A DNA stretch of 64,000 nucleotides from NCBI GenBank assembly GCA_021776245.1, contig JAJFGF010000053.1, positions 1 through 64,000 of the forward strand, written 5' to 3'. A program made the translations under genes and the position numbers. This document shows positions 4,903 to 22,008 of this stretch, piece by piece. The notes under the pieces were generated by a model, which did no database searches, was not told where the DNA came from, and saw nothing but the letters and a program-made list of their open reading frames with translations. Position 1 is the first letter of the stretch. Each line of letters starts with the position of its first letter. The DNA is from Hyphococcus sp. Lineage in GTDB: Bacteria; Pseudomonadota; Alphaproteobacteria; Caulobacterales; Parvularculaceae.

Positions 4903-6330
4903 ATGCTGAAATTTGTTTCGCAGGACCGCGAAACACCGGTGAAAAAAGATCCCGGCGCCCGGCGCCGGGATTTCGGCGAAATATATGCGAAATTCGCCCA
5001 TGATCACGCAGCAGCGCAAGCCGCGCGGTGCAGCCAATGCGGCGTACCGTTTTGTCAGAATCATTGTCCGCTCGGCAACGACATCCCGGACTGGCTGCGC
5101 CTGGTCGCCGAAGGCCGGTTGAAAGATGCTTACGCAATTTCCTCGGCGACCAACAATATGCCGGAAATATGCGGCCGCATTTGTCCTCAGGACCGGCTTT
5201 GCGAAGGCTCTTGCGTGATTGAGCAATCGGGACACGGCACGGTGACGATCGGCGCCGTCGAGCAATACATAACCGAGACCGCTTGGGAACAGGAATGGGT
5301 GAAGCCGCTGCAGCCGCAATTTGAGCGCGGACAGTCTGTCGGCATTATTGGCGCCGGACCTGCCGGCCTCGCCGCCGCTGAGGAGCTGAGAAAGCTCGGA
5401 ATTCAGACGGAAGTTTACGACCGCTATGACCGCGTCGGCGGACTTCTTCTCTACGGCATTCCCAATTTCAAACTTGAAAAAGAAATTGTCATACGCCGCA
5501 CTCAATATCTTGAGAAGAGCGGGGTAAAATTCACGCTTGATTTTGAAGTGGGGCGTGACGCCACACTCAATCAATTGCGCGCAAAGCACGACGCCGTGTT
5601 GATTGCAACGGGCGTTTATAATGCCCGCGCGCTAGCCTGTCCCGGCATCGGCAATCTCGGCGTTATCGCAGCGCTTGACTATTTAACAGCATCGAACCGC
5701 AAAGGGTTGGGCGATCAGGTCCTCGCGTTTGAGAATGGTGAATTAAATGCGGCGGCAAAAAATGTCGTGGTGGTCGGCGGCGGCGATACGGCGATGGACT
5801 GTGTCCGAACTGCGGTTCGACAGGGCGCCAAATCTGTCACCTGTCTTTACCGGCGCGACCGCGCCAACATGCCGGGCTCGGCGCGTGAGGTCGCCAACGC
5901 CGAAGAAGAAGGGGTTATTTTCGAATGGCTGGCGGCGCCGAAAGCGATTCTGGGCGCCCCGGAAAAAACAACCGGCATCCGGATTGCGCGTATGGAATTA
6001 GGCGACGCTGATGCGTCCGGGCGCCGGGCGCCAAAGGAAATTGCGGGCGCTGATTTTGACCTTGCCTCGGATCTCGTGATCAAAGCGTTGGGATTTGCGC
6101 CGGAGGATATGCCAGCATTATTCGGCGCTCCAGATCTTGCCGTAACGGCGCGGGGCACATTGCGCGTTGATCCGGCGACGATGGAGACGAACCTGCCAAT
6201 GGTCTTTGCTGCAGGCGATATTGTGCGCGGCGCCTCGCTGGTGGTTTGGGGGATACGCGACGGCCGCGAAGCCGCACGCGCTATTGCGGAAAAGCTTTTG
6301 GCCGCGCCCTCAATCATGGTCGCCGAGTAA
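4903..6330 (+). CDS. gltD: Glutamate synthase (NADPH) small subunit
   Basis: The 475-residue beta subunit passes electrons from NADPH through FAD to the GltB iron-sulfur and FMN centres. The N-terminal cysteine clusters are present (CSQCGVPFCQNHC and ICPQDRLCEGSC), followed by the FAD-binding GIIGAGPAGLAAAEEL and the NADPH-binding VVVVGGGDTAMDC segments. The C-terminal VFAAGDIVRGASLVVW motif matches the family. It precedes gltB and overlaps its start (TAATG), the reverse of the gltBD order in E. coli. It lies 30 bases after amtB, so ammonium uptake and GOGAT may be co-transcribed. Confidence 0.95.
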   Translation: MLKFVSQDRETPVKKDPGARRRDFGEIYAKFAHDHAAAQAARCSQCGVPFCQNHCPLGNDIPDWLRLVAEGRLKDAYAISSATNNMPEICGRICPQDRLCEGSCVIEQSGHGTVTIGAVEQYITETAWEQEWVKPLQPQFERGQSVGIIGAGPAGLAAAEELRKLGIQTEVYDRYDRVGGLLLYGIPNFKLEKEIVIRRTQYLEKSGVKFTLDFEVGRDATLNQLRAKHDAVLIATGVYNARALACPGIGNLGVIAALDYLTASNRKGLGDQVLAFENGELNAAAKNVVVVGGGDTAMDCVRTAVRQGAKSVTCLYRRDRANMPGSAREVANAEEEGVIFEWLAAPKAILGAPEKTTGIRIARMELGDADASGRRAPKEIAGADFDLASDLVIKALGFAPEDMPALFGAPDLAVTARGTLRVDPATMETNLPMVFAAGDIVRGASLVVWGIRDGREAARAIAEKLLAAPSIMVAE

Positions 6331-9300
6331 TGAATGCAAGAATCATGACTGATTATATATCGACCTATCAAAAACGCCGCACCGCGTTGATCGCAGCCAA
6401 CGCTTATGATCCAGCATCCGAACATGATGCGTGCGGCGTTGGTTTGGTTGCGGCGCTTGACGCCAAACCGCGGCGTGAAATCGTTGACATGGCGATAAAG
6501 GCGCTGAAAGCCGTTTGGCATCGCGGCGCTGTGGATGCAGACGGCAAAACCGGCGACGGCGCCGGCATTCGCCTTAATGTTCCGCAGGCGCTTTTTCGAA
6601 AATTTGTGGCGCGCACGGGCCATCATGTTGGCGATGAAGATATCTGCGTCGGCATGGTGTTTTTGCCGCGCGTCAACTTCGCCGCGCAGGACGCCGCGCG
6701 CTCAATAGTGGAATCCGAAATTCTTCGCCGCGGATTTTATATCTATGGCTGGCGACAGGCGCCGGTGCAGTCCCGTTGTCTGGGCGAAAAAGCTAATGTG
6801 ACACGGCCGGAAATTGAGCAGGTTCTGTTTTGTGACCCGAAAAGTCGCGGGCCCGAGGAACTTGATCGCATTCTTTATCTGGTGCGGCGGCGGATAGAAA
6901 AGCGCGCGCATGAGGCTGGCCTGCATGAACTCTATGTCTGCTCTCTTTCGTCTCAGGACATCGTCTATAAAGGCATGTTTCTCGCCCAGGAGATTGATAA
7001 TTTTTACACTGACCTGAAAGACCCGCAGTTCATTTCGCGGGTCGCAATATTTCACCAGCGCTATTCAACGAACACCTTTCCTGAATGGCGCCTGGCGCAG
7101 CCTTTTCGCATGCTTGCCCACAATGGGGAGATCAATACGCTTAAAGGCAATATCAACTGGATGAAAAGCCATGAAATCCGGATGACGTCGGAGATTTTTG
7201 GAGAGGACGGAGACGACACAAAACCGGTGATCCAGCGAGGGTCGTCGGACTCCGCAGCGCTTGATCAGACGTTTGAATTATTGGTGCGCGCCGGCCGTTC
7301 CGCTCCGATGGCTAAAGCGTTGTTGATGCCTGAAGCATGGTCAAAACGAGCCGCTGTCATGCCGGCCAAATGGCGGGCGCTTTACGAATACTGCAATGCA
7401 GTAATGGAACCGTGGGACGGACCGGCAGCAATCGCTGCTTATGACGGACGCTGGGTGATTGCCGGTCTCGACCGCAGCGGTTTGCGGCCGATGCGTTACG
7501 CGATCACCGAGGACGGTATTCTGGCTGTTGGCTCGGAAACGGGCATGTGTCCGCTGGACGGGCGCAACATTAAAAAACGCGGCGCGCTGGAATCTGGACG
7601 TATGATTGCGTTCGATATGGTCGAAGCGAAATTTTACGGGCCGGATGAAATTCTCAATCAAATTTCCGAAAAGCATCCCTATACGGAATGGCTTGAAAAT
7701 ATTGTCGAACTTGAACCGATGATCGGGCCGGGGCCCGAAGAACGCCTTTTTTCCGGTGAAGACATGATCCGCCGCCAAGCGGCGACCGGCTATGATTTGG
7801 AACTGCTGGACCTGATTTTGCGGCCGATGGCCGACGAAGCAAAAGAAGCGGTCGGCTCTATGGGCGACGACACGCCTATTGCAGTTCTATCCGAACGCTA
7901 CCGGCCTTTGTCGCATTATTTTCGGCAAAATTTCAGCCAGGTGACAAACCCGCCGATTGATCCCTTGCGCGAAGCGGGCGTCATGAGCCTCAAAACCCGC
8001 TTCAAAAATCTCGGCAATATTCTGGTCGCCGATAACACGCAGACCGATGTTTTCGTCCTCGAAAGTCCGGTGCTGACAAATGGCATGTTTGCGCGGCTCA
8101 ACAGCTTTCTCGATCAACGGATTGAGGAAATCGACTGCACCTATGATTTTAGCGCGATCAACAATAATGGTGAGGCTTTGCGCGATGCTCTGGACCGAAT
8201 TCGCAAAGACGCTCACACGGCTATAGAAAACGGCGCCGGACATATTATTCTGACCGATGAGCGTCAGGGCGCGGGTCGCATCGCCGTTCCAATGATACTT
8301 GCTGTCGGCGGCGTCCATGCGCATCTGACCGCAGCGGGTAAACGCTCTTATTGCTCGATTATTGTACGCTCAGCGGAATGCGTTGACGCTCACTATATGG
8401 CAGTATTGGTCGGCGTCGGCGCGACTGCGGTAAATCCCTATCTCGCTTTTGATAGCGTCGCTGCGGGCCATGAGCGCGGGGATTATGGCAAACTGGCGAT
8501 TGGTAAATGCGTTTATAATTATAAATGCGCGCTCGAAGCCGGGCTGTTCAAGATTATTTCAAAGATGGGCATCTCGGTGATTTCGAGCTATCGCGGCGGC
8601 TGCAATTTCGAAGCGCTCGGCCTTTCGCGTATGTTGGTGGAAGAGTTTTTTCCCGGCATGACCAGCCGCATTTCAGGCATCGGCCTTCCCGGTCTTGAAA
8701 GAAAAACCGCAGAGCTCCATGCAAAGGCATGGGAATGCGCTGCGCCGCGCCTGCCGGTCGGCGGGTTTTATCGTCAGCGCGCCCAAGGCGAACATCATAT
8801 TCTTCAGGCGGCGCTCATCAGCGATTTGCAGCAGGCGGTGCGTGAAGAAGATTACGATGCGTATAAACGCTATTCCACGGCGCTAAAAAACCAGCCGCCG
8901 TCGCAGATCAGGGATTTATTAGCCGTGCGGTCGGGGGCCAAGCCCATTGGAGCGGATCAAGTTGAAAACAGCGACGACATTCGCCGCCGTTTCGTAACAC
9001 CAGGCATGTCGCTTGGCGCCCTGTCGCCCGAGGCCCATGGCGCGCTAAATATTGCAATGAATCGGATTGGCGCCAAATCTGTTTCCGGTGAAGGCGGCGA
9101 GGATCCGGTGCGCTATTTGCCCTTGCCGAACGGGGACAACGCCAACTCGGCGATAAAACAAATCGCCTCTGGCCGGTTCGGCGTGACTGCGGAATATCTC
9201 AATCAGTGCCGCGAGATAGAAATCAAAGTTGCGCAAGGGGCAAAACCGGGCGAGGGCGGTCAGCTTCCAGGATTTAAAGTCACCGAATTCATCGCGCGCA

Positions 9301-10853
9301 TGCGTCATGCAACACCGGGTGTGACATTGATTTCGCCGCCGCCGCATCATGATATTTATTCCATTGAGGACCTTGCGCAGCTGATTTTTGATCTGAAACA
9401 AATTAATCCAGTCGCGCGGGTTTGCGTGAAGCTTGTCTCTGCGTCTGGCATCGGCGCCATTGCTGCGGGCGTCGCTAAGGCGCGCGCCGATACAATATTG
9501 ATTTCCGGCAATGTCGGGGGAACCGGCGCGAGCGCCCAGACATCGATCAAATTCGCCGGCGCCCCATGGGAATTGGGGCTTTCCGAAGCGCATCAGGTGC
9601 TGACGCTTAACAACCTTCGAAAGAGTGTCACCTTGCGAACCGATGGCGGTATTCGCACTGGACGAGATGTTGTCATCGCCGCGATGCTTGGCGCGGAGGA
9701 ATATGGCGTCGGCACGATATCGCTCGTCGCGATGGGATGTTTGATGGTCCGGCAGTGTCATTCAAATACCTGCCCGGTGGGTATTTGCACCCAGGATGAA
9801 GAATTGCGCCGACGGTTTAGCGGCGCAGCCAATCACGTCGTCAATTTGATGAGTTTTATCGCAGAGGAAACGCGCGAAATTCTCGCATCAATTGGCGCGC
9901 GATCGCTTGAGGATGTAATCGGCCGCGCAGACCTCCTCGATCAGGTTTCGCGTGGCGCGGCGCATCTCGATGACCTTGATCTTAATCCGATCCTGACCCG
10001 AGTTGACGCTGGCGAAAACCCTGCGCGGTCAAACCGCAAAGGACGGGTTGAAGTCGGCGATACGATTGATCAAAAGATCTGGCCGGCGATTACGCCGTTT
10101 TTCGAACAACGCGAAAAACTGCAAATATCGCGGGCGGTTAAAAATACCGACAGAGCCATCGGCGCCCGCATTTCTTCCGAAATCGTGCGGCGTTTTAAGC
10201 CCGGCGACCTTGCCGGGGATCATCTAACCCTGAGGCTTAAAGGTTCTGCCGGACAATCGCTCGGCGCATTCACTGTTTATGGCCTGAAGATCATCGTTGA
10301 CGGTGACGCCAATGATTATGTGGGCAAAGGCCTTTCCGGCGCGACTATTATCGTCCGCCCGGAAAAAGACAGCGCGAATGCCGGCGACGCGATCATCGGC
10401 AATACCTGTCTTTACGGCGCCACATCGGGAGCGCTTTTTGCGGCGGGGCGCGCGGGCGGGCGCTTTGCAGTGCGTAATTCCGGCGCCGTTACGGTGATTG
10501 AGGGTTGTTCGGCCAATGGCTGCGAATATATGACCGGCGGCGTTGCGGTTATTCTCGGTTCCGTGGGTAATAATTTTGCCGCCGGCATGACCGGCGGCCA
10601 GGCATTTGTTTTCGATGAGGCAGGCGGATTTGAAGATTACGTCAATCCGGATAGTGTCGCGCTTCATCGCTTCGACGCAGATAGCGAAGAGATTTGCAGG
10701 AAGTTGATCGAGCGCCACGTTTCGGCGACACGATCGCAAAAAGCGCGATGGCTCCTTGATGATTGGGCGCATATGCGCTCAAAGTTCTGGGCGGTGACGC
10801 CATTGGAAAGCCTCAACAGATCGGGGATTGCGGACGCCGCCAAATCAGCGTGA
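6330..10853 (+). CDS. gltB: Glutamate synthase (NADPH) large subunit
   Basis: The 1507-residue alpha subunit makes two glutamates from glutamine and 2-oxoglutarate. In order it has a class II glutamine amidotransferase domain whose catalytic Cys (EHDACGVG, Cys35 after a short propeptide), a central domain, the FMN-binding synthase barrel (GEGGEDP and AKPGEGGQLPG), a [3Fe-4S] cysteine cluster (QCHSNTCPVGIC, near residue 1140) and a C-terminal GXGXG beta-helix (SGATIIVRP, IGNTCLYGAT). The start codon overlaps the gltD stop; a second ATG five codons later is also possible. Length and motifs are normal. Confidence 0.95.
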   Translation: MNARIMTDYISTYQKRRTALIAANAYDPASEHDACGVGLVAALDAKPRREIVDMAIKALKAVWHRGAVDADGKTGDGAGIRLNVPQALFRKFVARTGHHVGDEDICVGMVFLPRVNFAAQDAARSIVESEILRRGFYIYGWRQAPVQSRCLGEKANVTRPEIEQVLFCDPKSRGPEELDRILYLVRRRIEKRAHEAGLHELYVCSLSSQDIVYKGMFLAQEIDNFYTDLKDPQFISRVAIFHQRYSTNTFPEWRLAQPFRMLAHNGEINTLKGNINWMKSHEIRMTSEIFGEDGDDTKPVIQRGSSDSAALDQTFELLVRAGRSAPMAKALLMPEAWSKRAAVMPAKWRALYEYCNAVMEPWDGPAAIAAYDGRWVIAGLDRSGLRPMRYAITEDGILAVGSETGMCPLDGRNIKKRGALESGRMIAFDMVEAKFYGPDEILNQISEKHPYTEWLENIVELEPMIGPGPEERLFSGEDMIRRQAATGYDLELLDLILRPMADEAKEAVGSMGDDTPIAVLSERYRPLSHYFRQNFSQVTNPPIDPLREAGVMSLKTRFKNLGNILVADNTQTDVFVLESPVLTNGMFARLNSFLDQRIEEIDCTYDFSAINNNGEALRDALDRIRKDAHTAIENGAGHIILTDERQGAGRIAVPMILAVGGVHAHLTAAGKRSYCSIIVRSAECVDAHYMAVLVGVGATAVNPYLAFDSVAAGHERGDYGKLAIGKCVYNYKCALEAGLFKIISKMGISVISSYRGGCNFEALGLSRMLVEEFFPGMTSRISGIGLPGLERKTAELHAKAWECAAPRLPVGGFYRQRAQGEHHILQAALISDLQQAVREEDYDAYKRYSTALKNQPPSQIRDLLAVRSGAKPIGADQVENSDDIRRRFVTPGMSLGALSPEAHGALNIAMNRIGAKSVSGEGGEDPVRYLPLPNGDNANSAIKQIASGRFGVTAEYLNQCREIEIKVAQGAKPGEGGQLPGFKVTEFIARMRHATPGVTLISPPPHHDIYSIEDLAQLIFDLKQINPVARVCVKLVSASGIGAIAAGVAKARADTILISGNVGGTGASAQTSIKFAGAPWELGLSEAHQVLTLNNLRKSVTLRTDGGIRTGRDVVIAAMLGAEEYGVGTISLVAMGCLMVRQCHSNTCPVGICTQDEELRRRFSGAANHVVNLMSFIAEETREILASIGARSLEDVIGRADLLDQVSRGAAHLDDLDLNPILTRVDAGENPARSNRKGRVEVGDTIDQKIWPAITPFFEQREKLQISRAVKNTDRAIGARISSEIVRRFKPGDLAGDHLTLRLKGSAGQSLGAFTVYGLKIIVDGDANDYVGKGLSGATIIVRPEKDSANAGDAIIGNTCLYGATSGALFAAGRAGGRFAVRNSGAVTVIEGCSANGCEYMTGGVAVILGSVGNNFAAGMTGGQAFVFDEAGGFEDYVNPDSVALHRFDADSEEICRKLIERHVSATRSQKARWLLDDWAHMRSKFWAVTPLESLNRSGIADAAKSA

Positions 10854-10898
10854 GGTTTTAAGGCCGCTTTCCGGAATCATTGGCGACAATTTCACATC

Positions 10899-12077
10899 AT
10901 GTCGAATACTGAAGACTTTTATCGCATCAAACAGCTGCCGCCTTATGTTTTTGAGGAGGTCAACAATCTGAAATCCGCCCTGCGCAAACAGGGACGCGAC
11001 ATTATTGATCTCGGTATGGGCAATCCCGACATGCCGACGCCAGGTCATATCGTCGACAAGCTGATCGAGACGGTGCAAAAGCCGCGCACCCATGGTTATT
11101 CCGCGTCAAAAGGCATTATTGGCCTGCGCCGCGCCATGGGACGCTATTACAAGCGCCGCTTTGACGTCGGCCTCGACCCCGAAAGTGAAATCATTGCAAC
11201 GCTTGGGTCCAAGGAAGGATTTGCCAATCTGGCGCAGGCAGTGACAGCGCCGGGCGATGTAATCCTTTCACCAAACCCGGCTTATCCGATCCACGCCTAT
11301 GGGTTTATTATCGCAGGCGGCGTTATCGCGCCGATCCCTGCTCATAGCCCCGAGCAATATCTTTCGAGTGTCAGCGAAGCGATCAAAGTTTCGCATATGA
11401 AGCCGCGCGCGATAGTGTTGAACTATCCGTCCAATCCAACAGCGCAGACCGTGACGCTTGATTTTTATAAAGATGCTGTTGCATTGGCGAAAAAGCACGA
11501 CATCCTTATTCTCTCAGATCTTGCCTATGCGGAAATTTATTTCGGCGACCCGCCGCCGTCAATATTGCAGGTCGCCGGCGCCAGAGACATTGCCGTTGAA
11601 GTAAATTCTCTTTCCAAAACCTTCGCTATGGCGGGGTGGCGCGTTGGCATGGCGGTCGGCAATGAGCGGATGATCAAGGCGCTGGGGCGCGTTAAATCCT
11701 ATCTCGACTATGGCGCCTTCACGCCAATCCAGGTCGCAGCAGCGACGGCGCTCGACGGACCCGAGGAATGCATTGAAGAGATGCGACGCACGTATCGCGG
11801 GCGCCGCGATGTTGTGGTTGAGCATTTTGGCGCGGCGGGCTGGGACATTCCGACGCCTGATGCGTCAATGTTCGCCTGGGCGCCGATCCCGGAACAGTTC
11901 CGCGACGTTGGCTCTGTGGAATTCGCCAAACGGTTGATGAATGAGGCCGATGTCGCCGTCGCGCCCGGTATTGGTTTTGGTGAGCATGGTGAAGGATTTG
12001 TTCGCATTGGGCTTGTCGAAAACCAGCAACGCATCCGTCAGGCGGCGCGCAATATCAAAAAGCTATTGCGGCGCTAG
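10899..12077 (+). CDS. Class I/II aminotransferase, AlaC-like
   Basis: The 392-residue PLP-dependent fold-type I aminotransferase has the Schiff-base lysine in NSLSKTFAMAGWRVG, the phosphate-binding arginine in the same segment, and NYPSNPTAQTV, the family Asn-Pro motif. It resembles the glutamate-pyruvate aminotransferase AlaC and the enzymes annotated as aspartate or LL-diaminopimelate aminotransferase that precede homoserine dehydrogenase in many alphaproteobacteria. The substrate is not decided by sequence. It lies 45 bases after gltB, so it may use the glutamate made there. It ends before a promoter and riboswitch. Confidence 0.85.
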   Translation: MSNTEDFYRIKQLPPYVFEEVNNLKSALRKQGRDIIDLGMGNPDMPTPGHIVDKLIETVQKPRTHGYSASKGIIGLRRAMGRYYKRRFDVGLDPESEIIATLGSKEGFANLAQAVTAPGDVILSPNPAYPIHAYGFIIAGGVIAPIPAHSPEQYLSSVSEAIKVSHMKPRAIVLNYPSNPTAQTVTLDFYKDAVALAKKHDILILSDLAYAEIYFGDPPPSILQVAGARDIAVEVNSLSKTFAMAGWRVGMAVGNERMIKALGRVKSYLDYGAFTPIQVAAATALDGPEECIEEMRRTYRGRRDVVVEHFGAAGWDIPTPDASMFAWAPIPEQFRDVGSVEFAKRLMNEADVAVAPGIGFGEHGEGFVRIGLVENQQRIRQAARNIKKLLRR

Positions 12078-12199
12078 GCGCCAACAGAGCCGCTAATCAT
12101 GCATCGTTAAGAAATTCTAACGCGCAGTCGAGTTTTGCTCCGGATCGCTGCCTGCAGAGCACGATCAGTCGCAAAATCGAATATTTTTGAAAATATCTG

Positions 12200-12227
12200 T
12201 TGACGATTTCGCATCTGCGAATATATT
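12200..12227 (+). promoter_or_regulatory. Sigma-70 type promoter of the met operon
   Basis: TTGACG (12200-12205) and TATATT (12222-12227) are 16 bases apart. Initiation about seven bases after the -10 box would fall at or just before the first base of the riboswitch P1 helix (12237), a tight positional agreement that supports both calls. Confidence 0.65.
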
Positions 12228-12236
12228 CCCCGCCAA

Positions 12237-12360
12237 CTCATCAAGACCAGCTGAGGGACAGGCCCGTTGACGCTGGGGCAACCGCCAAGAAGCAAGACCT
12301 GCTTTGAGGAAAGGTGCCAATTCCTTCGAGACGCCAATTTTGGATGTTTCGAGAGATGAG
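12237..12360 (+). promoter_or_regulatory. SAM-I (S-box) riboswitch aptamer
   Basis: The sequence has the S-box core in order: P1 5' strand CTCATC followed by AAGA, the conserved GAGGGAC...GGCCCG and GGCAACC of the P2/kink-turn region, AAGGTGCCAATTCC joining P3 and P4, and a closing P1 3' strand GATGAG that pairs perfectly with CTCATC. It binds S-adenosylmethionine and normally turns the downstream genes off. The next gene is metX. Alphaproteobacteria more often use SAM-II in this position, so a SAM-I class element is notable. Confidence 0.93.
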
Positions 12361-12400
12361 TCGGACGAGTGCATGTTTGTATGCGACCCGCCGTCCGATT
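12361..12400 (+). terminator. Hairpin of the riboswitch expression platform
   Basis: Seven-base arms TCGGACG (12361-12367) and CGTCCGA (12392-12398) form a stem directly after P1, with an inner GCAT/ATGC pairing, and are followed by TTTGGT. The position fits a terminator controlled by SAM binding, but the T-tract is short. No antiterminator pairing was established, so it could act another way. Confidence 0.5.
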
Positions 12401-12454
12401 TGGTCTCTGTGAATCACTTGTTGAGCGACGAAACGAGTGAGGCAGGGATTAAAA

Positions 12455-13450
12455 ATGACAATGGTTCAGCTAAAAGCGCCGGAAAACCCGGATTGTCCGT
12501 TTCCTGATTATCAGGATATCAGCGTGTTGTTGCCGCGCGATTTCATGCTCGAAAGCGGTGAGCGGCTTTCGCGTCCTCAATTGCGCGTTCGCCTTTGCGG
12601 CGACCGGACGCAACCGCTGGTCGTTGCGCTTGGCGGCATTTCGAGCGGGCGCGTAATTGCTGACGCCAGTGACGGGCAGGGCTGGTGGCGCAATATTGTT
12701 GGCTGCGGTCAATCGGTGGATTTAAATCGACTTTGCGTTCTCGGGTTTGATTTTCTGCCAAATACCCGCGAAACCGCGCGGACAATAACGACGCTCGACC
12801 AAGCGCGTGCGCTGGCTCATGCGCTGAAAATTCTTCGATTTGAAAGAATACATAATTTCATCGGCGCCTCTTATGGCGGCATGGTAGCGCTGGCTTTTGC
12901 TGCTGAATATCCTGGACTTGTTGCGCGCTTGTGCGTCATTTCTGCCGCCGATCGCGCACATCCGGCAGCCACTGCGTTGCGCGGCATCCAGCGGCGTATC
13001 CTGAAATTCGCCGCTGAGTGCGGCAGGCCCGAAGACGGCGTTGCTCTTGCGCGCCAGATCGCGATGGCGTCCTATCGAACCCCAACCGAATTCGCAGAAC
13101 GGTTTGACTGCGTTCCTGGCGCCTGTGCGGGGGAAGCGTATGACGTATGCGAATATTTGATTGCGTGCGGCGCAGCCTTTGACATGGACGGTGCGCGTTA
13201 CCTGACGCTTTCAGACTCTATTGATCGGCATCGTGTCGATCCTTCACAAATTCAAACGCAAACGGTGCTGATTTCGAGCTTGAGTGATCAGCTTGTTCCA
13301 CCTGGCGATCTTCAGCGCTTAGCGTCGGCAATACCCGGGACCGTCACCTTACACGAAATTGCATCACGCTACGGCCATGATGCGTTTTTGAAGGAAACGA
13401 AAACCATTGGCGCGTTAATCGAAAACTGCCTTCAGGAGAGTAATTTATGA
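12455..13450 (+). CDS. metX: Homoserine O-acyltransferase, MetX-like
   Basis: The 331-residue alpha/beta hydrolase-fold protein is the first gene behind the SAM-I riboswitch and is followed by metB, so it most likely activates homoserine by O-acetylation or O-succinylation. The nucleophile elbow is GASYGGMVAL, the acid lies in SLSDQLVPP and the histidine in RYGHDAFL. It is shorter than typical MetX (about 370-390). Because MetB classically uses O-succinylhomoserine, a succinyl donor is plausible, but sequence alone does not settle acyl specificity. The ATG is preceded by GAGGCAGGGA, which selects it over an in-frame start six codons earlier. It overlaps metB by four bases. Confidence 0.8.
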   Translation: MTMVQLKAPENPDCPFPDYQDISVLLPRDFMLESGERLSRPQLRVRLCGDRTQPLVVALGGISSGRVIADASDGQGWWRNIVGCGQSVDLNRLCVLGFDFLPNTRETARTITTLDQARALAHALKILRFERIHNFIGASYGGMVALAFAAEYPGLVARLCVISAADRAHPAATALRGIQRRILKFAAECGRPEDGVALARQIAMASYRTPTEFAERFDCVPGACAGEAYDVCEYLIACGAAFDMDGARYLTLSDSIDRHRVDPSQIQTQTVLISSLSDQLVPPGDLQRLASAIPGTVTLHEIASRYGHDAFLKETKTIGALIENCLQESNL

Positions 13451-14676
13451 GCCGCCGGCAAAACCGTGAAACGATTTGCGCCTCAGCTGCCGTCGGCGTC
13501 GACGCCGCGCATCATTCCGTGGCGCCGCCCCTACATCTTTCTGCGAATTATGCGTGGAGCGATCCATGCCAAAAGCCGCAATATGACTACGCGCGCTCTG
13601 GAAACCCGACACGGAGCCAACTCGAAGAAGCGCTTTGTGCGCTTGAGGGCGCCGCAAAAGGCGTTGTGACGGCGTCCGGCATGGCGGCGCTCGATCTTGT
13701 TTTATGTCTGGTTGCGCCCGGCGAGTTGGTATTGGCGCCCCATGATTGTTATGGCGGCACACACCGGCTTTTGACCGCGCGCGCCAAACGCGGTCAGTTC
13801 GACGTCGCCTTTGTCGATCAGTCCAATCCAGAGACGCTTGATGCTGCCTTCAGGCGTGCGCCGAAACTGGTGCTTATTGAAACGCCAAGCAATCCATTGC
13901 TTCGGATTTCTGACATTCGCTCTTGTGTTGCGCTTGCCAGGAAAACAGGCGCCCTTGTTGTTGCCGACAACACATTCCTGTCACCCGCACTGCAGCGCCC
14001 GCTCGAACTCGGCTGCGATATTGTCGTTCACTCGACGACCAAGTTCATCAACGGCCACAGCGATGTTGTCGGCGGCGCTGTGCTTGCGCGTGACGCGGCG
14101 CTTGGTGAAGAGCTTGCCTGGTGGGCGAATTGCACCGGCGTTACAGGCGCTCCCTTTGACAGTTTTCTGACCTTGCGCGGTTTGCGCACTCTGTTTCCAC
14201 GTATTGAGCGCCAGCAATTAACGGCGCAGGCCCTGGTTGATGCGCTCGCCGCTGACGATCGCGTTGAGACCGTATTTTATCCCGGGCTTTCCTCTCATCC
14301 AGGCCACGAAATCGCCCGTTCTCAGCAGGCAGGTTTCGGCGCCATGTTCAGCGTTGAATTCAAAGAGGGCGTGGAAGTGCTGCGCCTGCTCCGATCAATA
14401 AATGTTTTTACTATCGCTGAATCGCTGGGCGGCTTTGAAAGCCTTGTCTGCTTACCGGCGGCGATGACACACGCGTCGATGGATGCAGAAGCGCGGCGGA
14501 TTGCGGGGATTTCTGAAAGGCTTGTGCGTTTTTCCGCCGGGCTGGAGCACGAGCAGGATTTGCTCCGGGATATTTTTACTGCACTTGATTCGGCGTCCGA
14601 AATCGGCGCGGCATTGCCTGCCGGGCCTGCCAATATATCAAAATTTCCGAAACAGGCGGCAGATATATGTGCCTAG
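13447..14676 (+). CDS. metB: Cystathionine gamma-synthase
   Basis: The 409-residue Cys/Met-metabolism PLP enzyme joins an O-acylhomoserine with cysteine to give cystathionine. It closely follows E. coli MetB in recognisable stretches: YDYARSGNPTR, LAPHDCYGGTHRL, FVDQ, ADNTFLSPALQRPLELG, the PLP lysine in STTKFINGHSDVV, and AWWANCTGVTGAPFDS. These favour MetB over O-succinylhomoserine sulfhydrylase, though the two can overlap in activity. The start codon overlaps metX (ATGA) and its end overlaps the next gene, so translation is probably coupled. Confidence 0.85.
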   Translation: MSRRQNRETICASAAVGVDAAHHSVAPPLHLSANYAWSDPCQKPQYDYARSGNPTRSQLEEALCALEGAAKGVVTASGMAALDLVLCLVAPGELVLAPHDCYGGTHRLLTARAKRGQFDVAFVDQSNPETLDAAFRRAPKLVLIETPSNPLLRISDIRSCVALARKTGALVVADNTFLSPALQRPLELGCDIVVHSTTKFINGHSDVVGGAVLARDAALGEELAWWANCTGVTGAPFDSFLTLRGLRTLFPRIERQQLTAQALVDALAADDRVETVFYPGLSSHPGHEIARSQQAGFGAMFSVEFKEGVEVLRLLRSINVFTIAESLGGFESLVCLPAAMTHASMDAEARRIAGISERLVRFSAGLEHEQDLLRDIFTALDSASEIGAALPAGPANISKFPKQAADICA

Positions 14677-16424
14677 AAACTGTGGACATGTCGTTGTCTC
14701 GATCGGCGAGGGGTGAGGCGGCGTCCTTCGCACCGCCCGAGCCAATTGTTTTGAAATTTGGTTCATCGGTGCTGCGCGATGCGTCTGATTTGAAAGACGT
14801 TGTCTCAGAGATTTACCGATATGCCAGACACGGGCGAAAAACCGTCGCGGTTGTTTCCGCTTTCGCGGGAGAAACCGACAAACTCTACAAAGAGGTTGCA
14901 GCGCTTGGCGCCACAAGCCAGTCGCGGCACGCGCCGCGAGTGATCGCACTGGGCGAGGATCGTTCAGCCGCGCTGCTAGCAATTGCCTGTGATGCGTTGG
15001 GATTAGGCGCGCGCATCGCCGGGGCTCGACAATTATCGTTGCGCGCCGGCGGCCCGGTAGACGACGCGCACCCGCAATCGATTGACGACGAGGCCTTGCG
15101 GCACGCGCTGAATGAAAATGATGTCGTGATCGTGCCGGGATTTGTGGCGATTGGCGCCTCTGGCGAACCAGTTTTGCTGGGCCGCGGCGGGTCTGACCTC
15201 ACGGCCGTTTGTGTCGCACATGCGCTGGATCTCGGTGAAGTGTCTCTGATCAAGGATGTGGACGGCGTTTATGATCGTGACCCGGCGATTGCCGGCCGTG
15301 AAGCCAAGCGTTTTCGATATATGGACTGGGGCGCAGCGCGCGATGTTGCAGGAAAATTGTTACAACCGAAGTCTGTCGATTATGCAGCCGCCCGTGATGT
15401 GGCGATCAATGTTCGGCGTCTCGGTGACGATGAAGGTACGCGCGTTGCGTCTAAAACGATTGAACCCGCCGACGCCTTTACGAGCGATCCCTTGGGCGTT
15501 GGCGTAGCCGGCCTCGGTGTTATTGGAGCGGGCGCGGCTTTGCGGATTCTCGAAAACAACGCCGATTACGCGTTCAGCGGTGCGCTCGTGCGCACCCGCG
15601 CAAAAACGCGCGAAGCGCATTTTGATGAGCACAAGCTACATTGCGCACTGGGAGAATTTCTGGACATAAATCCCGATATTATCGTTGACGCGTTGCCTTC
15701 CGGCGGCGCCGGCCGCGAATTGATCGAATCTGCTTTGTCCCGCGGCGTCAGCGTCGTATCAGCAAACAAACAGGCCATTGCAGGATCTCTGGCGAAATTT
15801 CATCACATTGCGGCCGCGAATGGTGCTGCGCTTTTCTATAGCGCCGCTGTGGGCGGCGGGGCGCCCATGATTGAAACGATACGCTGCGCTAAAGCGGCTG
15901 GCAGCGTGCGATCAGTAACGGCGATATTAAACGGCACCGTCAATTTTATCCTTTACGCGATGAAGGGCGGCGAAACCTATGATGGCGCAATTCGGCATGC
16001 GCAGGCGGCGGGGTTTGCCGAGCCGGATCCATCTGCTGATTTATCGGGAGAAGACGCCAGGGCGAAAATATCCATTCTCTGTTTTGAGGCCTTTGGGTGC
16101 GAGCCAGATCCGGGGATAATTGCAGTTGAAGCACTGACACAGGAACTGGCGGAAAAGATCGCGCGGAACGGAGGCGTCTGGAAGCAACTGGCAAAGATGC
16201 GCCAGGCGCCTGACGGTGAAATCATCGCATCTTTGAAATATGAACCTGTGGGTGACGACACGCTGTTCAGCGATACGCCGGGCGAAGGCAATGCAATGCG
16301 TGTCGTCGTTCGTGGCGGGCGGCAATTTGAGTGCCGGGGCAAGGGCGCCGGGCGCCGCCCGACAGTTGAGAGCCTGCTTGCTGATATCGGCGACCACCGG
16401 CGCTCGATTTCAAAAAGCGAATGA
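14667..16424 (+). CDS. Bifunctional aspartokinase/homoserine dehydrogenase lacking ACT domains
   Basis: The 585-residue fusion has an N-terminal amino-acid kinase domain (KFGSSVL near residue 29, RGGSDLTAV, KDVDGVYDRDP) and a C-terminal homoserine dehydrogenase (VAGLGVIGAGAA for NAD(P), SANKQAI, GTVNFIL, and the catalytic Asp/Lys in DLSGEDARAKISIL). E. coli ThrA and MetL have over 800 residues; here the kinase runs straight into the dehydrogenase near residue 275, with no room for the ACT domains that carry allosteric control in ThrA. The first and third steps of the homoserine branch are thus present. Placement in the SAM-controlled operon points to a methionine-dedicated MetL role. A second ATG seven codons downstream is an alternative start. 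Confidence 0.85.
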   Translation: MCLETVDMSLSRSARGEAASFAPPEPIVLKFGSSVLRDASDLKDVVSEIYRYARHGRKTVAVVSAFAGETDKLYKEVAALGATSQSRHAPRVIALGEDRSAALLAIACDALGLGARIAGARQLSLRAGGPVDDAHPQSIDDEALRHALNENDVVIVPGFVAIGASGEPVLLGRGGSDLTAVCVAHALDLGEVSLIKDVDGVYDRDPAIAGREAKRFRYMDWGAARDVAGKLLQPKSVDYAAARDVAINVRRLGDDEGTRVASKTIEPADAFTSDPLGVGVAGLGVIGAGAALRILENNADYAFSGALVRTRAKTREAHFDEHKLHCALGEFLDINPDIIVDALPSGGAGRELIESALSRGVSVVSANKQAIAGSLAKFHHIAAANGAALFYSAAVGGGAPMIETIRCAKAAGSVRSVTAILNGTVNFILYAMKGGETYDGAIRHAQAAGFAEPDPSADLSGEDARAKISILCFEAFGCEPDPGIIAVEALTQELAEKIARNGGVWKQLAKMRQAPDGEIIASLKYEPVGDDTLFSDTPGEGNAMRVVVRGGRQFECRGKGAGRRPTVESLLADIGDHRRSISKSE

Positions 16425-16466
16425 TTTTGATTGATTGCCGCGCTGCCGCTTTTATAGCTAAGTGTT

Positions 16467-17612
16467 ATGTCCACGAATTCATTTTCTCCAGCGGCAGAAA
16501 TTCTGCGGTCATCAAAGCGTCTTGTGATCAAGGCGGGTTCGGCAATCATTTGCGGAACACAGGGTGAGGCGAATGCCAGTTGGCTATCGTCAATAGCAAC
16601 TGATATCGCGATGTTGCGTAATGAAGGCGTCGAAATGATCGTGGTGACGTCTGGCGCCATTGCGCTGGGCCGAAACGTTCTCGGCTTGAAAGGCGCATTG
16701 CGACTGGAAGAAAAGCAGGCGGCGTCTGCAGCCGGGCAGGTCAAGCTGGCGGAAGCCTGGCAGGCCGCGCTCGCGCCCCATGGCATAAAGATCGCGCAGG
16801 TTCTGCTGACCTTGCAGGAAACCGAAGAACGTCGCCGGTACCTGAATGCGCGTGGGACGATCAGGACCCTGCTTGATCTCGGCGCACTGCCATTGGTCAA
16901 TGAAAATGACACAGTTGCGACAAGCGAAATTCGCTATGGAGACAATGACCGGTTGGCGGCGCATACAGCGCAGATTGCCGGTGCGGATGCGCTGATAATT
17001 CTTTCCGATATTGACGGGCTCTATACCGCAGACCCCCGGATCAATGCGGACGCTGCACACATTTCTGTCGTCGACGTCATTACGCCGGAAATTATCCGCT
17101 CGGCTTCGGGCCCCAACAGCGTGAGTGGCGTCGGTTCGGGCGGGATGGCGACAAAAATCACGGCAGCGAAAATCGCCGGCGCCAGTGGTTGTGCGACGAT
17201 TATTGCGGCGGGCGATTGTGCGCATCCGATTAGAGCGGTTCTGGAAGGTGCGCCTGCAACGTTATTTCGGCCGTCGGACAATAAGGAAAATGCACGGCGC
17301 CAGTGGATCGCCGGGCGGATCAAATCAGCTGGCAAGATCATTGTCGATCAAGGCGCCGCCGTTGCGATCAGAGACGGCGCCAGCCTGCTGCCAGCAGGAG
17401 TGACCGCAATAGAAGGCGATTTCCGGCGCGGTGACGCCGTGAGCATCATAAGTACAGATAACGAGATGTTAGGGCAGGGGCTGTCGGCATATGATGCGCC
17501 CGACATTAAAAAAATTATGGGATTATCTTCGGACGCCGCCGAACAGGCGCTCGGTTATCGCCGCCGCCCGGCAGTGATAGAGCGCAATGATCTTGTGCTG
17601 CGGACAAAATGA
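16467..17612 (+). CDS. proB: Glutamate 5-kinase
   Basis: The 381-residue enzyme phosphorylates glutamate in the first step of proline synthesis. The amino-acid kinase domain shows VIKAGSAII, VTSGAIALG, NENDTVA, YGDNDRLAAHTA and SGVGSGGMATKI; a C-terminal PUA domain (about residues 275-370) follows, as in E. coli ProB. It begins 42 bases after the kinase-dehydrogenase fusion with no terminator between, so it may be read from the met promoter. proA follows after 15 bases. No strong ribosome-binding site is evident. Confidence 0.95.
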   Translation: MSTNSFSPAAEILRSSKRLVIKAGSAIICGTQGEANASWLSSIATDIAMLRNEGVEMIVVTSGAIALGRNVLGLKGALRLEEKQAASAAGQVKLAEAWQAALAPHGIKIAQVLLTLQETEERRRYLNARGTIRTLLDLGALPLVNENDTVATSEIRYGDNDRLAAHTAQIAGADALIILSDIDGLYTADPRINADAAHISVVDVITPEIIRSASGPNSVSGVGSGGMATKITAAKIAGASGCATIIAAGDCAHPIRAVLEGAPATLFRPSDNKENARRQWIAGRIKSAGKIIVDQGAAVAIRDGASLLPAGVTAIEGDFRRGDAVSIISTDNEMLGQGLSAYDAPDIKKIMGLSSDAAEQALGYRRRPAVIERNDLVLRTK

Positions 17613-17627
17613 TGTGGAATTGACCCA

Positions 17628-18902
17628 ATGACGGACGATCAGTCGATTGCAGCGGCCATGAAAGTCATCGGCGCCAATGCGCGCGCTGCCACGCGAAAAA
17701 TGGCCTCGGCGCCATCAAAACATAAAAACACAGCGCTGCGTCTTGCCGCTGATCAAATTGTCGAGCGTCAGGAAAGGATTCTGGCTGTTAATCTTGGAGA
17801 GCTCGAAGCTGCTAGGGCGCGTGACGTTTCGCCTGCTTTCATCGACCGCATGACATTAACACCGGCGCGCATCGGCGAGATCGCGACAGCGCTGCGCGAT
17901 ATAGCTTCGCTTGACGATCCTGTCGGCAAATTGATCAGCAAATGGTCGCGGCCAAACGGGCTTCAGATTGAACGCGTGCGTGCGCCCATCGGCGTCATCG
18001 CGATTATTTATGAAAGCCGGCCCAATGTAACTGTTGATGCGGGTGCGATCTGTCTCAAAGCCGGCAATGCGGCTATCCTTCGCGGCGGTTCAGAATGCAT
18101 TAAAACATCGAAAGCGCTGTTTGACTGTCTTGCCGGCGCTTTGGCGCCCAGTGGGCTTCCGGAAAATGCGCTGCAGTTTATTGAGACAACGAACCGCGCC
18201 GCGGTTGGAGAATTGCTGTCGGGGCTCGATGGTCAAATTGACTTGCTCATTCCGCGCGGCGGCAAGTCTCTCGTGTCGCGTGTGCAGTCTGAAGCGCGGG
18301 CGCCGGTCTTGAGCCACCTTGATGGCATCTGTCATGTTTATATTGATCGCGACGCCGATGTGAAAAAAGCAGTCGACATTACAGTCAACTCCAAAATGCG
18401 CCGTACAGGCGTTTGCGGCGCCGCTGAGACGCTCCTTGTAGACCGCGCCATTGCCGGCAAGATCTGGCCACAACTTTCCAAATCATTGCGCGACGCGGGC
18501 TGTGAGCTTCGTGGAGACCGAGCCATACGGAAGATCGACTCATCGATAGCAGCGGCAAAAGAAGAAGATTGGCGAACGGAATATCTCGCGCCAGTCCTGT
18601 CTGTTGCAGTGGTCGAAGGGGTGACTGGTGCGTTGGAACATCTCGAGAAATATTCTTCCGGTCATACGGAAGCTATTGTCACGGAAAATGACGAAACGGC
18701 CGGGCAATTTCTTGTGGGCGCTGACAGCGCGATCCTTTTGCACAACGCCTCGACACAATTTGCCGATGGCGGTGAGTTTGGGCTGGGAGCAGAGATCGGC
18801 ATCGCCACCGGGCGTCTCCATGCTCGCGGGCCGGTCGGCGTAGAAGAATTGACGACCTATAAGAATATTGTGCGCGGGCACGGTCAGATTCGGCCAAACT
18901 GA
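17628..18902 (+). CDS. proA: Gamma-glutamyl phosphate reductase
   Basis: The 424-residue aldehyde dehydrogenase-superfamily enzyme reduces glutamyl phosphate to glutamate semialdehyde. Recognised features are IGVIAIIYESRPNVTVDA, LKAGNAAILRGGSE, the catalytic Cys in RRTGVCGAAETLLVD, and HTEAIVTEND near the C terminus. Length is normal. With proB it forms the usual proline pair. A long interrupted palindrome follows about 85 bases downstream. Confidence 0.95.
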   Translation: MTDDQSIAAAMKVIGANARAATRKMASAPSKHKNTALRLAADQIVERQERILAVNLGELEAARARDVSPAFIDRMTLTPARIGEIATALRDIASLDDPVGKLISKWSRPNGLQIERVRAPIGVIAIIYESRPNVTVDAGAICLKAGNAAILRGGSECIKTSKALFDCLAGALAPSGLPENALQFIETTNRAAVGELLSGLDGQIDLLIPRGGKSLVSRVQSEARAPVLSHLDGICHVYIDRDADVKKAVDITVNSKMRRTGVCGAAETLLVDRAIAGKIWPQLSKSLRDAGCELRGDRAIRKIDSSIAAAKEEDWRTEYLAPVLSVAVVEGVTGALEHLEKYSSGHTEAIVTENDETAGQFLVGADSAILLHNASTQFADGGEFGLGAEIGIATGRLHARGPVGVEELTTYKNIVRGHGQIRPN

Positions 18903-19077
18903 CCAAATGCTGCACCGGCTAAGGAGTTAGATGAATATGCTAAAAAAGTGCATGAAAGGTGCGGCACAGTAAACTAATGACGTCTAATTGGAATTAGCAG
19001 GTTGTTTTTTAACCAATTCCAATTTAGGGGCTTATTTGCGCTGCAACAAATGCCGCGCGGAAACCGGAATAGAAGAG
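18903..19077. other. Intergenic region before the ilv leader
   Basis: No gene is recognised here. A frame opening at 18988 extends the ilv leader ORF upstream, but its extra 30 residues are not rich in branched-chain residues and run across the palindrome described separately. A promoter for the ilv leader should lie here, but I could not identify convincing -35 and -10 boxes. Confidence 0.45.
18986..19024. repeat. Long interrupted palindrome between proA and the ilv leader
   Basis: Arms AATTGGAAT and ATTCCAATT enclose an inner GGTT/AACC pair separated by GTTTTTT, giving a near-symmetrical 39-base structure. It could be a regulator-binding site for the ilv promoter or a hairpin ending proBA transcription. 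There is no T-tract after it, only a run of T within the loop, so a terminator is the less likely reading. Confidence 0.55.
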
Positions 19078-19224
19078 ATGCAGTCTTTGTTTGACGCAGC
19101 ATTGGCCAGAGTGGTTGCGCCGTTTATGGGCGATCAACTTTTGCCTTTTCTAATGCCCCTCCTTCTAGTGGTGATCCTCCTTATTAGCCCCAACCGGGGA
19201 GTGGCCTTGGAGCCCGCGCGCTAA
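19078..19224 (+). CDS. Branched-chain-rich leader peptide of the ilv operon
   Basis: The 48-codon ORF ends with nine consecutive Leu, Val and Ile codons (LLLVVILLI, 19159-19185) and then SPNRGVALEPAR and a double stop. Its C-terminal pattern recalls the E. coli ilv leader peptide, where a Val/Ile run is followed by a proline and GAAL. It lies directly before a terminator hairpin and ilvD, the arrangement of ribosome-mediated attenuation: ribosomes stalled at these codons when branched-chain tRNAs are scarce allow read-through. An in-frame ATG at 19126 would give a 32-residue peptide; the ATG at 19078 is chosen because AGAAGAG precedes it, but this is not decisive. Confidence 0.8.
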   Translation: MQSLFDAALARVVAPFMGDQLLPFLMPLLLVVILLISPNRGVALEPAR

Positions 19225-19245
19225 TAAAGCGACACGGACCTTCAA

Positions 19246-19277
19246 AAACCCGCTCCCGACCGGAAGCGGGTTTTTTT
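19246..19277 (+). terminator. Attenuator terminator before ilvD
   Basis: Arms AACCCGCT and AGCGGGTT, separated by ten bases, are followed by a run of T (TTTTTTTG overall). This is a good intrinsic terminator located between the leader peptide stop and ilvD. GGGAG at 19197-19201, just past the branched-chain codons, is complementary to CTCCC at 19253-19257, which overlaps the 5' arm, so a competing antiterminator is possible. That pairing is inference. Confidence 0.85.
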
Positions 19278-19306
19278 GTGTTTGAAACAAAGGCGAGAAG
19301 AAAAGA

Positions 19307-20986
19307 ATGAACGAGACGAGGCAAAAGCGATCCGACGCAATCACCAAGGGGCCGGCAAAGGCCCCGGCGCGGGCGATGCTGCGGGCTGCCGGCTATGACG
19401 ACAAGGATTTCGCGCAGCCGATGATTGCGGTGGTCAATACCTGGTCCACGGTGACGCCGTGCAACATGCACCTTGCCGATCTCGCTGAACCGGTTCGCGC
19501 AGGCGTGCGGGCCGGGGGCGCAACGCCGATCGATTTTAACACTATTGTTGTTTCCGACGGCATCACCATGGGCGGCGAGGGCATGCGCGCTTCGCTGATC
19601 TCACGGGAGGTGATTGCTGATTCAATTGAGCTCGCGGTGCGCGGACATTCTCTTGATGCGGCGATCATCATGGTCGGCTGCGACAAGACATTGCCGGCGG
19701 CGGCGATGGCGCTGGCGCGGATGGATATTCCCGGCTTGATTTTCTACGGCGGCACGATCATGCCCGGTCATTGCAGAGGCCGTGATCTTTCCGTTCAGGA
19801 TGTCTTTGAAGCGGTTGGCGCTCATGCCAGCGGCAACATGTCCGATTCGGAATTGGATGAAATCGAACGCCATGCCTGTCCAGGGCCCGGCGCTTGCGGC
19901 GGGCAGTTTACGGCAAACACGATGGCCATGGCTCTGACCTTTTTGGGTCTTGCGCCGATGGGGGCCGGCGATCCGCCGGCGACAAATGGCGCAAAAGCCG
20001 GTGAAGCTGAACGTTGTGGCAAGCTGGTTGCTGAACTTGCCTATAGCGGAACGACAGCGCGGACTTTTGTTACAGAAGTCTCCTTGCGCAATGCGGCGAC
20101 CGCCGTGGTCGCCAGCGGCGGTTCAACCAATGCTGTCCTGCATTTGCCGGCGATCGCCGCGGAAGCGGGCGTTGAGTTTTCAATCGATGTTTTTGACGAG
20201 TTATCCCGCGTCACGCCGGTCATCACTGATTTAAAACCAGGCGGCCGGTTTCTCGCCAAAGACCTTTTTGAGGCGGGCGGCATGTCGCTTTTCGGCCAGC
20301 GCCTGATGGAAGGCGGACGCCTTGCTGATGCGCCAACCGTGAGCGGGCGAATGCTGTTTGAAGAGCTCAGCACCGCTGCGGAAACACCCGGTCAACAGGT
20401 CGTTTGCAGTGTTGACGATCCGGTTAAGAAAACCGGGGGCTTGCGTATTCTTTATGGCGATATGGCCCCGGAAGGCGCAGTGTTAAAGACCGCCGGTTAC
20501 AGCGATGGATCGTTTGAAGGCCGCGCGCGGGTTTTTGACAGTGAGGAAGCTGCGTTTGAGGCTGTCTCTCAAAACCAGATCAAGGACGGCGACGTTGTTG
20601 TCATTCGCTATGAAGGCCCCAAGGGTGGGCCGGGCATGCGCGAAATGCTGGCGGTCACCGCCGCCGTCGCCGGCCAGGGCCTTGCAGGCAAAGTTGCGCT
20701 GATTACCGACGGACGGTTTTCCGGCGCCTCCCACGGTTTTGTCATCGGCCATGTGGCGCCGGAAGCCGCCAGTGGCGGACCGATTGCTCTCGTTGAAGAC
20801 GGGGATGTGATCCGCATTAGCGCTGAGGAACGGCGAATAGATGCGGATATCGACTGGACGGCGCGGCGCGCGGCCTTCACGCCGCGCCCGCTCAATCGCA
20901 TGGGCGGCGCCTTCGACAAATATGCAAGGCTTGTCTCCTCAGCGTCAAAAGGCGCTGTCACCATTGCGCACAACCAGGATCAGTAA
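19307..20986 (+). CDS. ilvD: Dihydroxy-acid dehydratase
   Basis: The 559-residue enzyme dehydrates dihydroxy acids to the keto-acid precursors of valine and isoleucine. Three cluster-ligand cysteines are in the expected contexts ([26 protein letters not shown]), the set associated with the [2Fe-2S] or short [4Fe-4S] IlvD group. [17 protein letters not shown] and [11 protein letters not shown] are diagnostic. The ATG follows AGGCGAGAAGAAA after the attenuator. It is the first structural gene of the ilv operon, with ilvC 11 bases on. Confidence 0.95.
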
Positions 20987-20997
20987 GGAAAGAAGCG

Positions 20998-22008
20998 ATG
21001 AAAGTTTATACGGATAACGACGCCAACCCCGCCGCCATGAAAGAGGGGCCTGTTGCGATTATTGGTTATGGCAGCCAGGGGCGCGCTCATGCGTTGAATT
21101 TGAAAAATTCCGGATGCGACGTAATTGTCGGCGTGCGCAAAGGCGGCGCCGGCGCGGAAAAAGCGACGGCGGACGGCTTGGAAATCGCCAGCGTTAAAGA
21201 CGCCGCCCATGCGGCAAAGCTCATCGCCCTCCTAACACCGGATATGAGTCATGAAGCCCTCTATAAGGAAGAAATTGCGCCGTCGATGAGCGATGGTGAT
21301 GCGCTTTCTTTCGCACATGGCTTTTCCATTCTTTATGGGCGCGTTCAGCCGCCGAAAAATATCGATGTGATCATGGTGGCGCCAAAGGGGCCCGGCGATC
21401 TCGTCCGCCGCGAATATGAACGCGGTCGCGGCGTGCCTTGTCTCTTCGCCGTCCATCAGGATGCGACCGGCCGCGCTAAAGAGCGGGCGCTATCTTATGC
21501 GAGCCTCATTGGCGGGACCACCGCCGGCGCGCTTGAAACGACATTTAAGGAAGAAACGGAGACCGATTTATTCGGCGAGCAGGCGGTGTTATGCGGCGGC
21601 GCGACCGAGCTGGTGCTGGCGGGTTTCGAGACGCTCACGGAAGCCGGCTACCGTCCAGAGATTGCTTATTATGAATGTCTTCATGAACTAAAGCTCATCG
21701 TTGACCTCCTCTACGAAGGCGGTCTGGCTAAAATGCATGAGTTCATTTCAGAAACTGCGATTTACGGCGACCTCGTTTCAGGACCGCGCGTCATCAATGA
21801 CGAAACGCGTCACCGCATGCGTGAGGTGCTGAAGGACATTCAATCCGGCGCCTTCGCGCGGGAATGGGTCTTGGAAAATCAGGCAGGCAAGCCGCGCTAT
21901 GGCAAGCTGTTGGAAGCTGACCTTAATCACCCGATTGAAAAAACTGGCAAGGAACTGCGCGAGCGCATGGCCTGGCTGCAATCCGGCGCCAACACAAAAG
22001 AAGACTGA
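20998..22008 (+). CDS. ilvC: Ketol-acid reductoisomerase (class I)
   Basis: The 336-residue enzyme isomerises and reduces acetolactate and acetohydroxybutyrate. The NADPH-binding [17 protein letters not shown] lies at the N terminus and the two-metal site in [17 protein letters not shown]. Length matches the short class I type. AGGAAAGAAGCG precedes the ATG. It sits between ilvD and ilvB in one operon. Confidence 0.95.

Follow-up and report, generated by a model that had tools for sequence, protein, structure and literature searches.

A SAM-I riboswitch with predicted translational control over a metX-metB-aspartokinase/homoserine dehydrogenase operon in Hyphococcus sp. (Parvularculaceae)

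The 64,000-nucleotide (nt) stretch of Hyphococcus sp. DNA analysed here (the window; positions 1 to 64,000 of the forward strand of contig JAJFGF010000053.1) carries an S-adenosylmethionine (SAM) riboswitch of the SAM-I class, followed by the methionine genes metX, metB and a fusion of aspartate kinase and homoserine dehydrogenase (AK-HSD). This riboswitch probably shuts off translation of the homoserine-to-cystathionine operon when SAM is plentiful. As placed by an initial annotation made from the sequence alone, the unit runs from 12200 to 16424, that is, from promoter to stop codon (Table 1). The identification of the aptamer as SAM-I in that annotation is borne out by a cmscan search of the whole window, in which the RF00162 match clearly exceeds the gathering score of 44.4 bits (E 5.5e-17), is full-length (model positions 1-108 of 108) and is the best overlapping match within clan CL00012. 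The corresponding search with the SAM-II model (RF00521) gives 0 matches in the window's genome. Helix P1 is paired, although to call its pairing perfect was slightly generous, since the outermost position is a non-standard pair in the RF00162 alignment. By every test run the aptamer is an ordinary member of RF00162, and its binding of SAM is predicted from sequence.

The promoter ends 7 nt 5' of the aptamer and is the one sigma-70-like site found, with a mean of 0.3 in shuffled sequences. By eye, TTGAC was also seen at most 50 nt upstream in 9/9 SAM-II leaders and in 12/12 other SAM-I leaders inspected. The aptamer is separated from metX by 92 nt. The initial annotation had read promoter, aptamer and a hairpin as consistently positioned; promoter and aptamer stand, but the hairpin is not an intrinsic terminator, because a terminator scan of 12060-12480 found no terminator-like site.

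Table 1. Features of the SAM-I leader and the operon in the window
Feature	Position	Strand	Basis
Sigma-70-like promoter TTGACG-16 nt-TATATT	12200..12227	+	Promoter scan; directly 5' of aptamer
SAM-I (S-box) aptamer	12235..12362	+	RF00162, 79.2 bits
P1/P4 3' strand CGAGAGAU, putative anti-Shine-Dalgarno partner in ON state	12350..12357	+	Predicted folds and pairing
Platform hairpin GUCGGACG...CGUCCGAU, predicted to place anti-Shine-Dalgarno beside P1 3' strand	12360..12399	+	Predicted folds
Putative anti-Shine-Dalgarno GGUCUCUG, switching strand	12402..12409	+	Conservation in 29 leaders; folds
Shine-Dalgarno region CAGGGAUU	12443..12450	+	8/8 pairs with anti-Shine-Dalgarno (5 Watson-Crick, 3 G-U)
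metX, short form, 331 aa, homoserine O-succinyltransferase type	12455..13450	+	NF006449, 320.4 bits (cut-off 296)
metB, cystathionine gamma-synthase	13447..14676	+	TIGR02080, 520.7 bits (cut-off 504.55)
AK-HSD fusion without ACT domains	14667..16424	+	AA_kinase, NAD_binding_3 and Homoserine_dh

The proposed switch would act on translation by means of two alternative leader folds, both of them predicted. In the absence of SAM, the 3' strand of P1 would pair with the GGUCUCU motif of the platform, leaving the metX Shine-Dalgarno (SD) sequence free (ON state). Once SAM is bound, P1 would be closed and GGUCUCU freed to pair with the SD sequence CAGGGAUU, blocking metX (OFF state). Such a block would probably reach metB and AK-HSD by translational coupling, because metX and metB overlap by 4 nt (ATGA) and metB and AK-HSD by 10 nt.

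Leaders were compared for 29 of the 30 SAM-I loci of the family; L002, whose contig ends just past the aptamer, was left out, and the second SAM-I copies of two genomes (L162, L163) lie outside this set. The sequence GGUCU, located in the platform outside the aptamer, is invariant in all 29, and GGTCTCT occurs once in the whole window, at 12402-12408 (2.4 expected). Predicted folds of a nascent intermediate pair the anti-SD with the P1 3' strand in 29/29 leaders, and the ON hairpin is the SAM-free nascent fold in 28 of them, the P1 alternative being about 0.7-3.1 kcal/mol worse, a modelled gap within what a ligand could close. The window platform folded alone forms the anti-SD:SD hairpin, better than shuffled sequences (z -2.69 to -3.05). 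Covariation was analysed in the 23 distinct sequences among 30 composites. In the ON helix, both strands have changed with pairing preserved in 3 of the 23, at 2/7 pairs and in two lineages; as many such cells were reached by 2/500 shuffles and as many pairs by 43/500. The OFF helix holds 9 such cells (0/500 shuffles), its SD pieces having been preselected for pairing.

Several observations weigh against this account. The nascent SAM-free fold of one leader (L023) favours P1, and its enforced-P1 energy lies below the minimum, hence the energy gaps are approximate. The SAM-free minimum-energy fold of the whole leader keeps the anti-SD:SD hairpin in 23/29 leaders, the window included, and shows the ON hairpin in just 6/29. 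When the SD pairing is compared with plain shuffles of the SD region, values of 0.05 or less are reached in 11/29 leaders (0.01 in the window, up to 0.99 in others). Besides, the SD 8-mers in the 38-nt composites used for covariation had been picked as the best-pairing ones, a bias towards the OFF helix. Because the SAM-free whole-leader fold keeps the SD hairpin, the ON state would need co-transcriptional kinetics or a further factor, and one of these is presumably at work.

The nearest described system is the met operon of Xanthomonas. As in SAM-IXcc of Xanthomonas campestris (PMC7270179), a SAM-I riboswitch lies before a homoserine acyltransferase-metB-hom operon, there is no intrinsic terminator and the SD is sequestered at the translational level, the pairing in the window being predicted. 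Unlike SAM-IXcc, the window's switch is alphaproteobacterial, it has its own platform motif GGUCUCU and the hom gene is fused to an ACT-less aspartate kinase. In Xanthomonas, too, an SD hairpin exists without SAM, and the SD is freed by uncharged initiator tRNA (PMC7270179). The window's platform might likewise be a dual sensor that also binds uncharged initiator tRNAfMet, as the operon type is that of Xanthomonas and the SD hairpin is predicted to be stable without SAM in both cases. However, tRNA recognition in Xanthomonas does not follow a simple base-pairing rule (PMC7270179), GGUCUCU is missing from the out-of-class leaders inspected (none of them a named Xanthomonas leader) and the platforms are not evidently alike, so that a dual sensor appears unlikely. 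We also consider it improbable that the leader works by transcription attenuation, SAM binding triggering Rho-dependent or weak intrinsic termination with the SD left unblocked. SAM-I switches characterized earlier use a Rho-independent terminator (PMC7270179), and two hairpins lie 3' of the aptamer, but the terminator scan of the leader was empty and the conserved motif pairs with an SD that adjoins the start codon. SAM-dependent blocking of metX translation is the reading that we retain.

The last gene of the operon shows a second peculiarity. ThrA and MetL are bifunctional aspartokinase-homoserine dehydrogenases, and the window protein resembles them in joining kinase and dehydrogenase in one chain. 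Unlike ThrA, the domain scan finds no match to the ACT domain in it, as is the case in 31 relatives, and it scores 172.8 bits against NF006959, whose cut-off is 726. This fusion is the only homoserine dehydrogenase (HSD) match in the window's genome, a second whole-protein hit covering the kinase half only. Sixteen of the 41 family genomes searched for HSD and SAM-I have the riboswitch, and 14 of these have exactly one HSD match, at most 4 kb from it; G010 has a further HSD match elsewhere, and G032 yielded none.

ACT domains are present in 0/32 operon HSDs (window included) versus 14/16 HSDs located elsewhere in the family. The operon set was composed of the window and 31 loci with a readable hom, in two of which (L041 and L050) the place of the riboswitch lies beyond the contig end; L047 and L060, whose hom runs off the contig, were left out, and no hom match was found downstream of metB in the SAM-I loci L057, L063 and L068. 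The residues past the matched HSD region number 2-26 in the 31 relatives versus 117-217 in the 16 others, the latter figure being inflated because some of these matches stop early. A kinase domain is present in 10/32 operon HSDs. In the hom products of L042, L046, L048 and L055, the match is preceded by an N-terminal stretch of about 135-147 residues that may be what is left of a decayed kinase; no kinase domain was found in those of L042 and L048 scanned alone. Because the window fusion has no ACT domain, SAM-gated translation would probably be its main feedback control.

Loss of ACT as a strict rule was rejected outside the family, because the AK-HSD fusions of Caulobacteraceae type are transcribed away from the riboswitch (one of them, L073, was scanned and has no ACT) and the 10-kb surroundings read for the second ACT-less fusion of G010 (L164) contain no riboswitch match.

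SAM-I is rare in the class, as the initial annotation had supposed, with matches in 8/385 genomes, 7 of them over the cut-off; searches over more than 40 genomes use stricter filters, by which weak matches can be lost. The riboswitch is found in 30/60 genomes and 2/9 genera of the family, in 46/200 genomes and 9/41 genera of the order, spread over three families, and in 83/398 genomes of the phylum. The stretches read around six class matches outside the order (L032-L037) show no MetX, MetB or AK-HSD match. The short MetX was detected in 13/398 phylum genomes (E 1e-25 or better), 4 in the window's order and 9 in the families f197 and f218 outside the class, and coordinates compared by eye place SAM-I at most 300 nt upstream of it in 13/13. 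In the class search (E 1e-30 or better) 2/337 genomes have it, both in the window's order. Seven loci read from two families outside the class show the SAM-I-metX-metB layout, with a hom match next in 6/7. The families f197 and f218 are taken as gammaproteobacterial because the Xanthomonas layout is common to them.

A wider set of named loci was found with a MetX alignment, whose model (R1) draws mostly on sequences of the window's own family, and comprises the best 80 of 495. The aptamer lies just upstream of metX in 78/80, the exceptions being L041 and L050, whose start lies about 200 nt from the end of a contig. Brevundimonas, Asticcacaulis, Robiginitomaculum, Amphiplicatus and Rhodothalassium are among the genera represented. 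The SAM-I-metX unit is therefore a lineage-wide feature of the window's order and no recent arrival in the window's genome.

Other arrangements were also seen. Two genomes of the family (G014 and G024) carry a second SAM-I, placed immediately in front of a separate metB (L162:4240-4379 and L163:4055-4200), in addition to the one that precedes metX and hom, a split operon with a switch on both parts; the hom product of G024 (scanned as L150) is ACT-less. Neither SAM-I nor short MetX was found in G001, of the same genus as the window, which keeps an ACT-less hom followed by proB-proA (L156). In f189, a large phylum family outside the class, SAM-I precedes genes whose translations, read by eye, are threonine synthase- and cysteine synthase-like (L206 and L208).

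The same operon head is occupied in sister genera of the family by SAM-II (SAM_alpha, RF00521), the alphaproteobacterial class (PMC9373788, PMC4239095), whose Rfam family and fold differ from those of the window's SAM-I. MetX matches (E 1e-50 or better) were obtained in 43/60 family genomes and fall into two groups. Of the 31 closest (identity of at least 49%), 29 have SAM-I adjoining on the same contig; of the other two, G054 carries its SAM-I on a different contig, at the end, and the search found none in G056. The 12 distant ones (46% or less) include 11 with a SAM-II match just upstream as judged by eye, 5/11 over the gathering score, and G002, where no SAM-II match was found upstream. The split is not clean by genus, since one genome assigned to the genus of the window, G051, is of the SAM-II type. 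Of nine SAM-II loci read, five exceed the gathering score of 36 bits, at 37.1-40.9, and the other four, found at the same place, fall below it, at 30.5-33.9. Gene order in five of the nine (L151-L155) is that of the window, metX, metB and AK-HSD; in the remaining four, metX-metB was seen. SAM-II was also seen immediately 5' of an aspartate kinase gene that stands alone (product of 262-278 aa, no ACT match; L158:95-170 and L160:4071-4151), the L160 match scoring below the gathering score.

The initial annotation had suggested phylogenies of the operon genes, and trees of MetX and MetB were built. The MetX tree has 70 rows. Besides the window it takes in 45 of the named loci described above, 9 SAM-II loci, 5 more loci of the order and 7 out-of-class loci, with 3 classic MetX sequences serving as outgroup. 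The MetB tree has 64 rows. The MetX of L197 and several MetB rows have long branches, and the G028 relative of MetX has an in-frame stop, stops being treated as gaps. The alphaproteobacterial MetX rows form one clade that leaves out the out-of-class rows (support 96/97), as do the MetB rows (100/98). The SAM-II MetX rows form a clade among the alphaproteobacterial rows (100/97), while the MetB tree does not sort these loci by switch class (3 changes). The family MetB, with both SAM-I and SAM-II rows, is grouped (100/100), with L067, L116 and L213 from other families inside. These last belong to a Sphingomonadaceae record and to Robiginitomaculum-type genomes and have long branches; their placement suggests lateral transfer of metB. 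In approximately unbiased (AU) tests, the family MetX as one clade is not rejected (p-AU 0.134), nor, hence, is vertical descent with a swapped switch. The values for MetB are 0.32 for the SAM-II rows as one clade and 0.194 for the SAM-I rows. The grouping of alphaproteobacterial SAM-I rows (p-AU 0.332) and that of all SAM-I rows including those from outside the class (0.24) are not rejected either.

These trees bear on two further explanations, both concerning the origin of the operon. The head of the operon may have been replaced en bloc, SAM-I and metX displacing, or being displaced by, SAM-II and metX, with metB and hom staying in place. The single clade of SAM-II MetX set beside the ungrouped MetB of the same loci agrees with such a replacement, as do the family MetB clade with its three foreign rows and the SAM-II type in G051; against it, the AU tests reject neither simple vertical descent nor the two MetB groupings by switch class, and we hold the replacement to be possible but somewhat doubtful. 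The initial annotation had proposed a transferred unit of gammaproteobacterial type. The same layout does occur in two families outside the class, and short MetX, shared with out-of-class genomes, is found in just two class genomes. It is nevertheless very improbable that the window's lineage recently acquired the whole operon from a gammaproteobacterium by horizontal transfer. This scenario is weakened by the MetX and MetB trees, in which alphaproteobacterial rows stand apart from out-of-class rows, and by the presence of SAM-I through three families of the order, so that nothing special or recent about the window's genome is retained from that proposal. An old shared cassette fits better, because all 13 short MetX copies sit just below a SAM-I, and an old transfer between the alphaproteobacterial and out-of-class groups is plausible.

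The exchange of SAM-I and SAM-II, the ACT-less enzyme and the translational platform go beyond what the initial annotation had described. Taken together with the proposed control of metX translation by SAM, they lead us to propose, tentatively, that in Parvularculaceae the feedback on homoserine formation has moved from protein to RNA, tying threonine to SAM, and that SAM-I and SAM-II have been swapped at the same operon head. The only HSD, ACT-less and here fused to an ACT-less kinase, would be made under a SAM riboswitch, and threonine supply would follow SAM. If so, one riboswitch class could stand in for another while the control task itself stayed conserved, and sister genera would offer a natural experiment in regulatory replacement, with two structurally unrelated SAM sensors before the same operon. 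Within the family, an RNA sensor at the operon head would go with absence of the protein feedback domain. Translational SAM-I control would also extend beyond Xanthomonas, and gain, loss and swap of riboswitch classes could be tested directly in cultivable relatives. Of lasting interest would be the exchange of riboswitch classes and the shift of control that may have occurred, from ACT domain to RNA. In the literature covered, that is, main texts open without subscription, no report of SAM-I in Caulobacterales or Parvularculales was found; a 2013 survey (PMC3766115) counted SAM sites in lineages that include 4 Caulobacterales genomes and may hold an earlier SAM-I count.

The operon lies within a run of amino-acid genes in the window (6246-22008), in which an LL-diaminopimelate aminotransferase gene and proB were recognized by family match. 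The run also contains an open reading frame that we take to be glutamate synthase-like and, after proB, others that are presumably proA-, ilvD- and ilvC-like.

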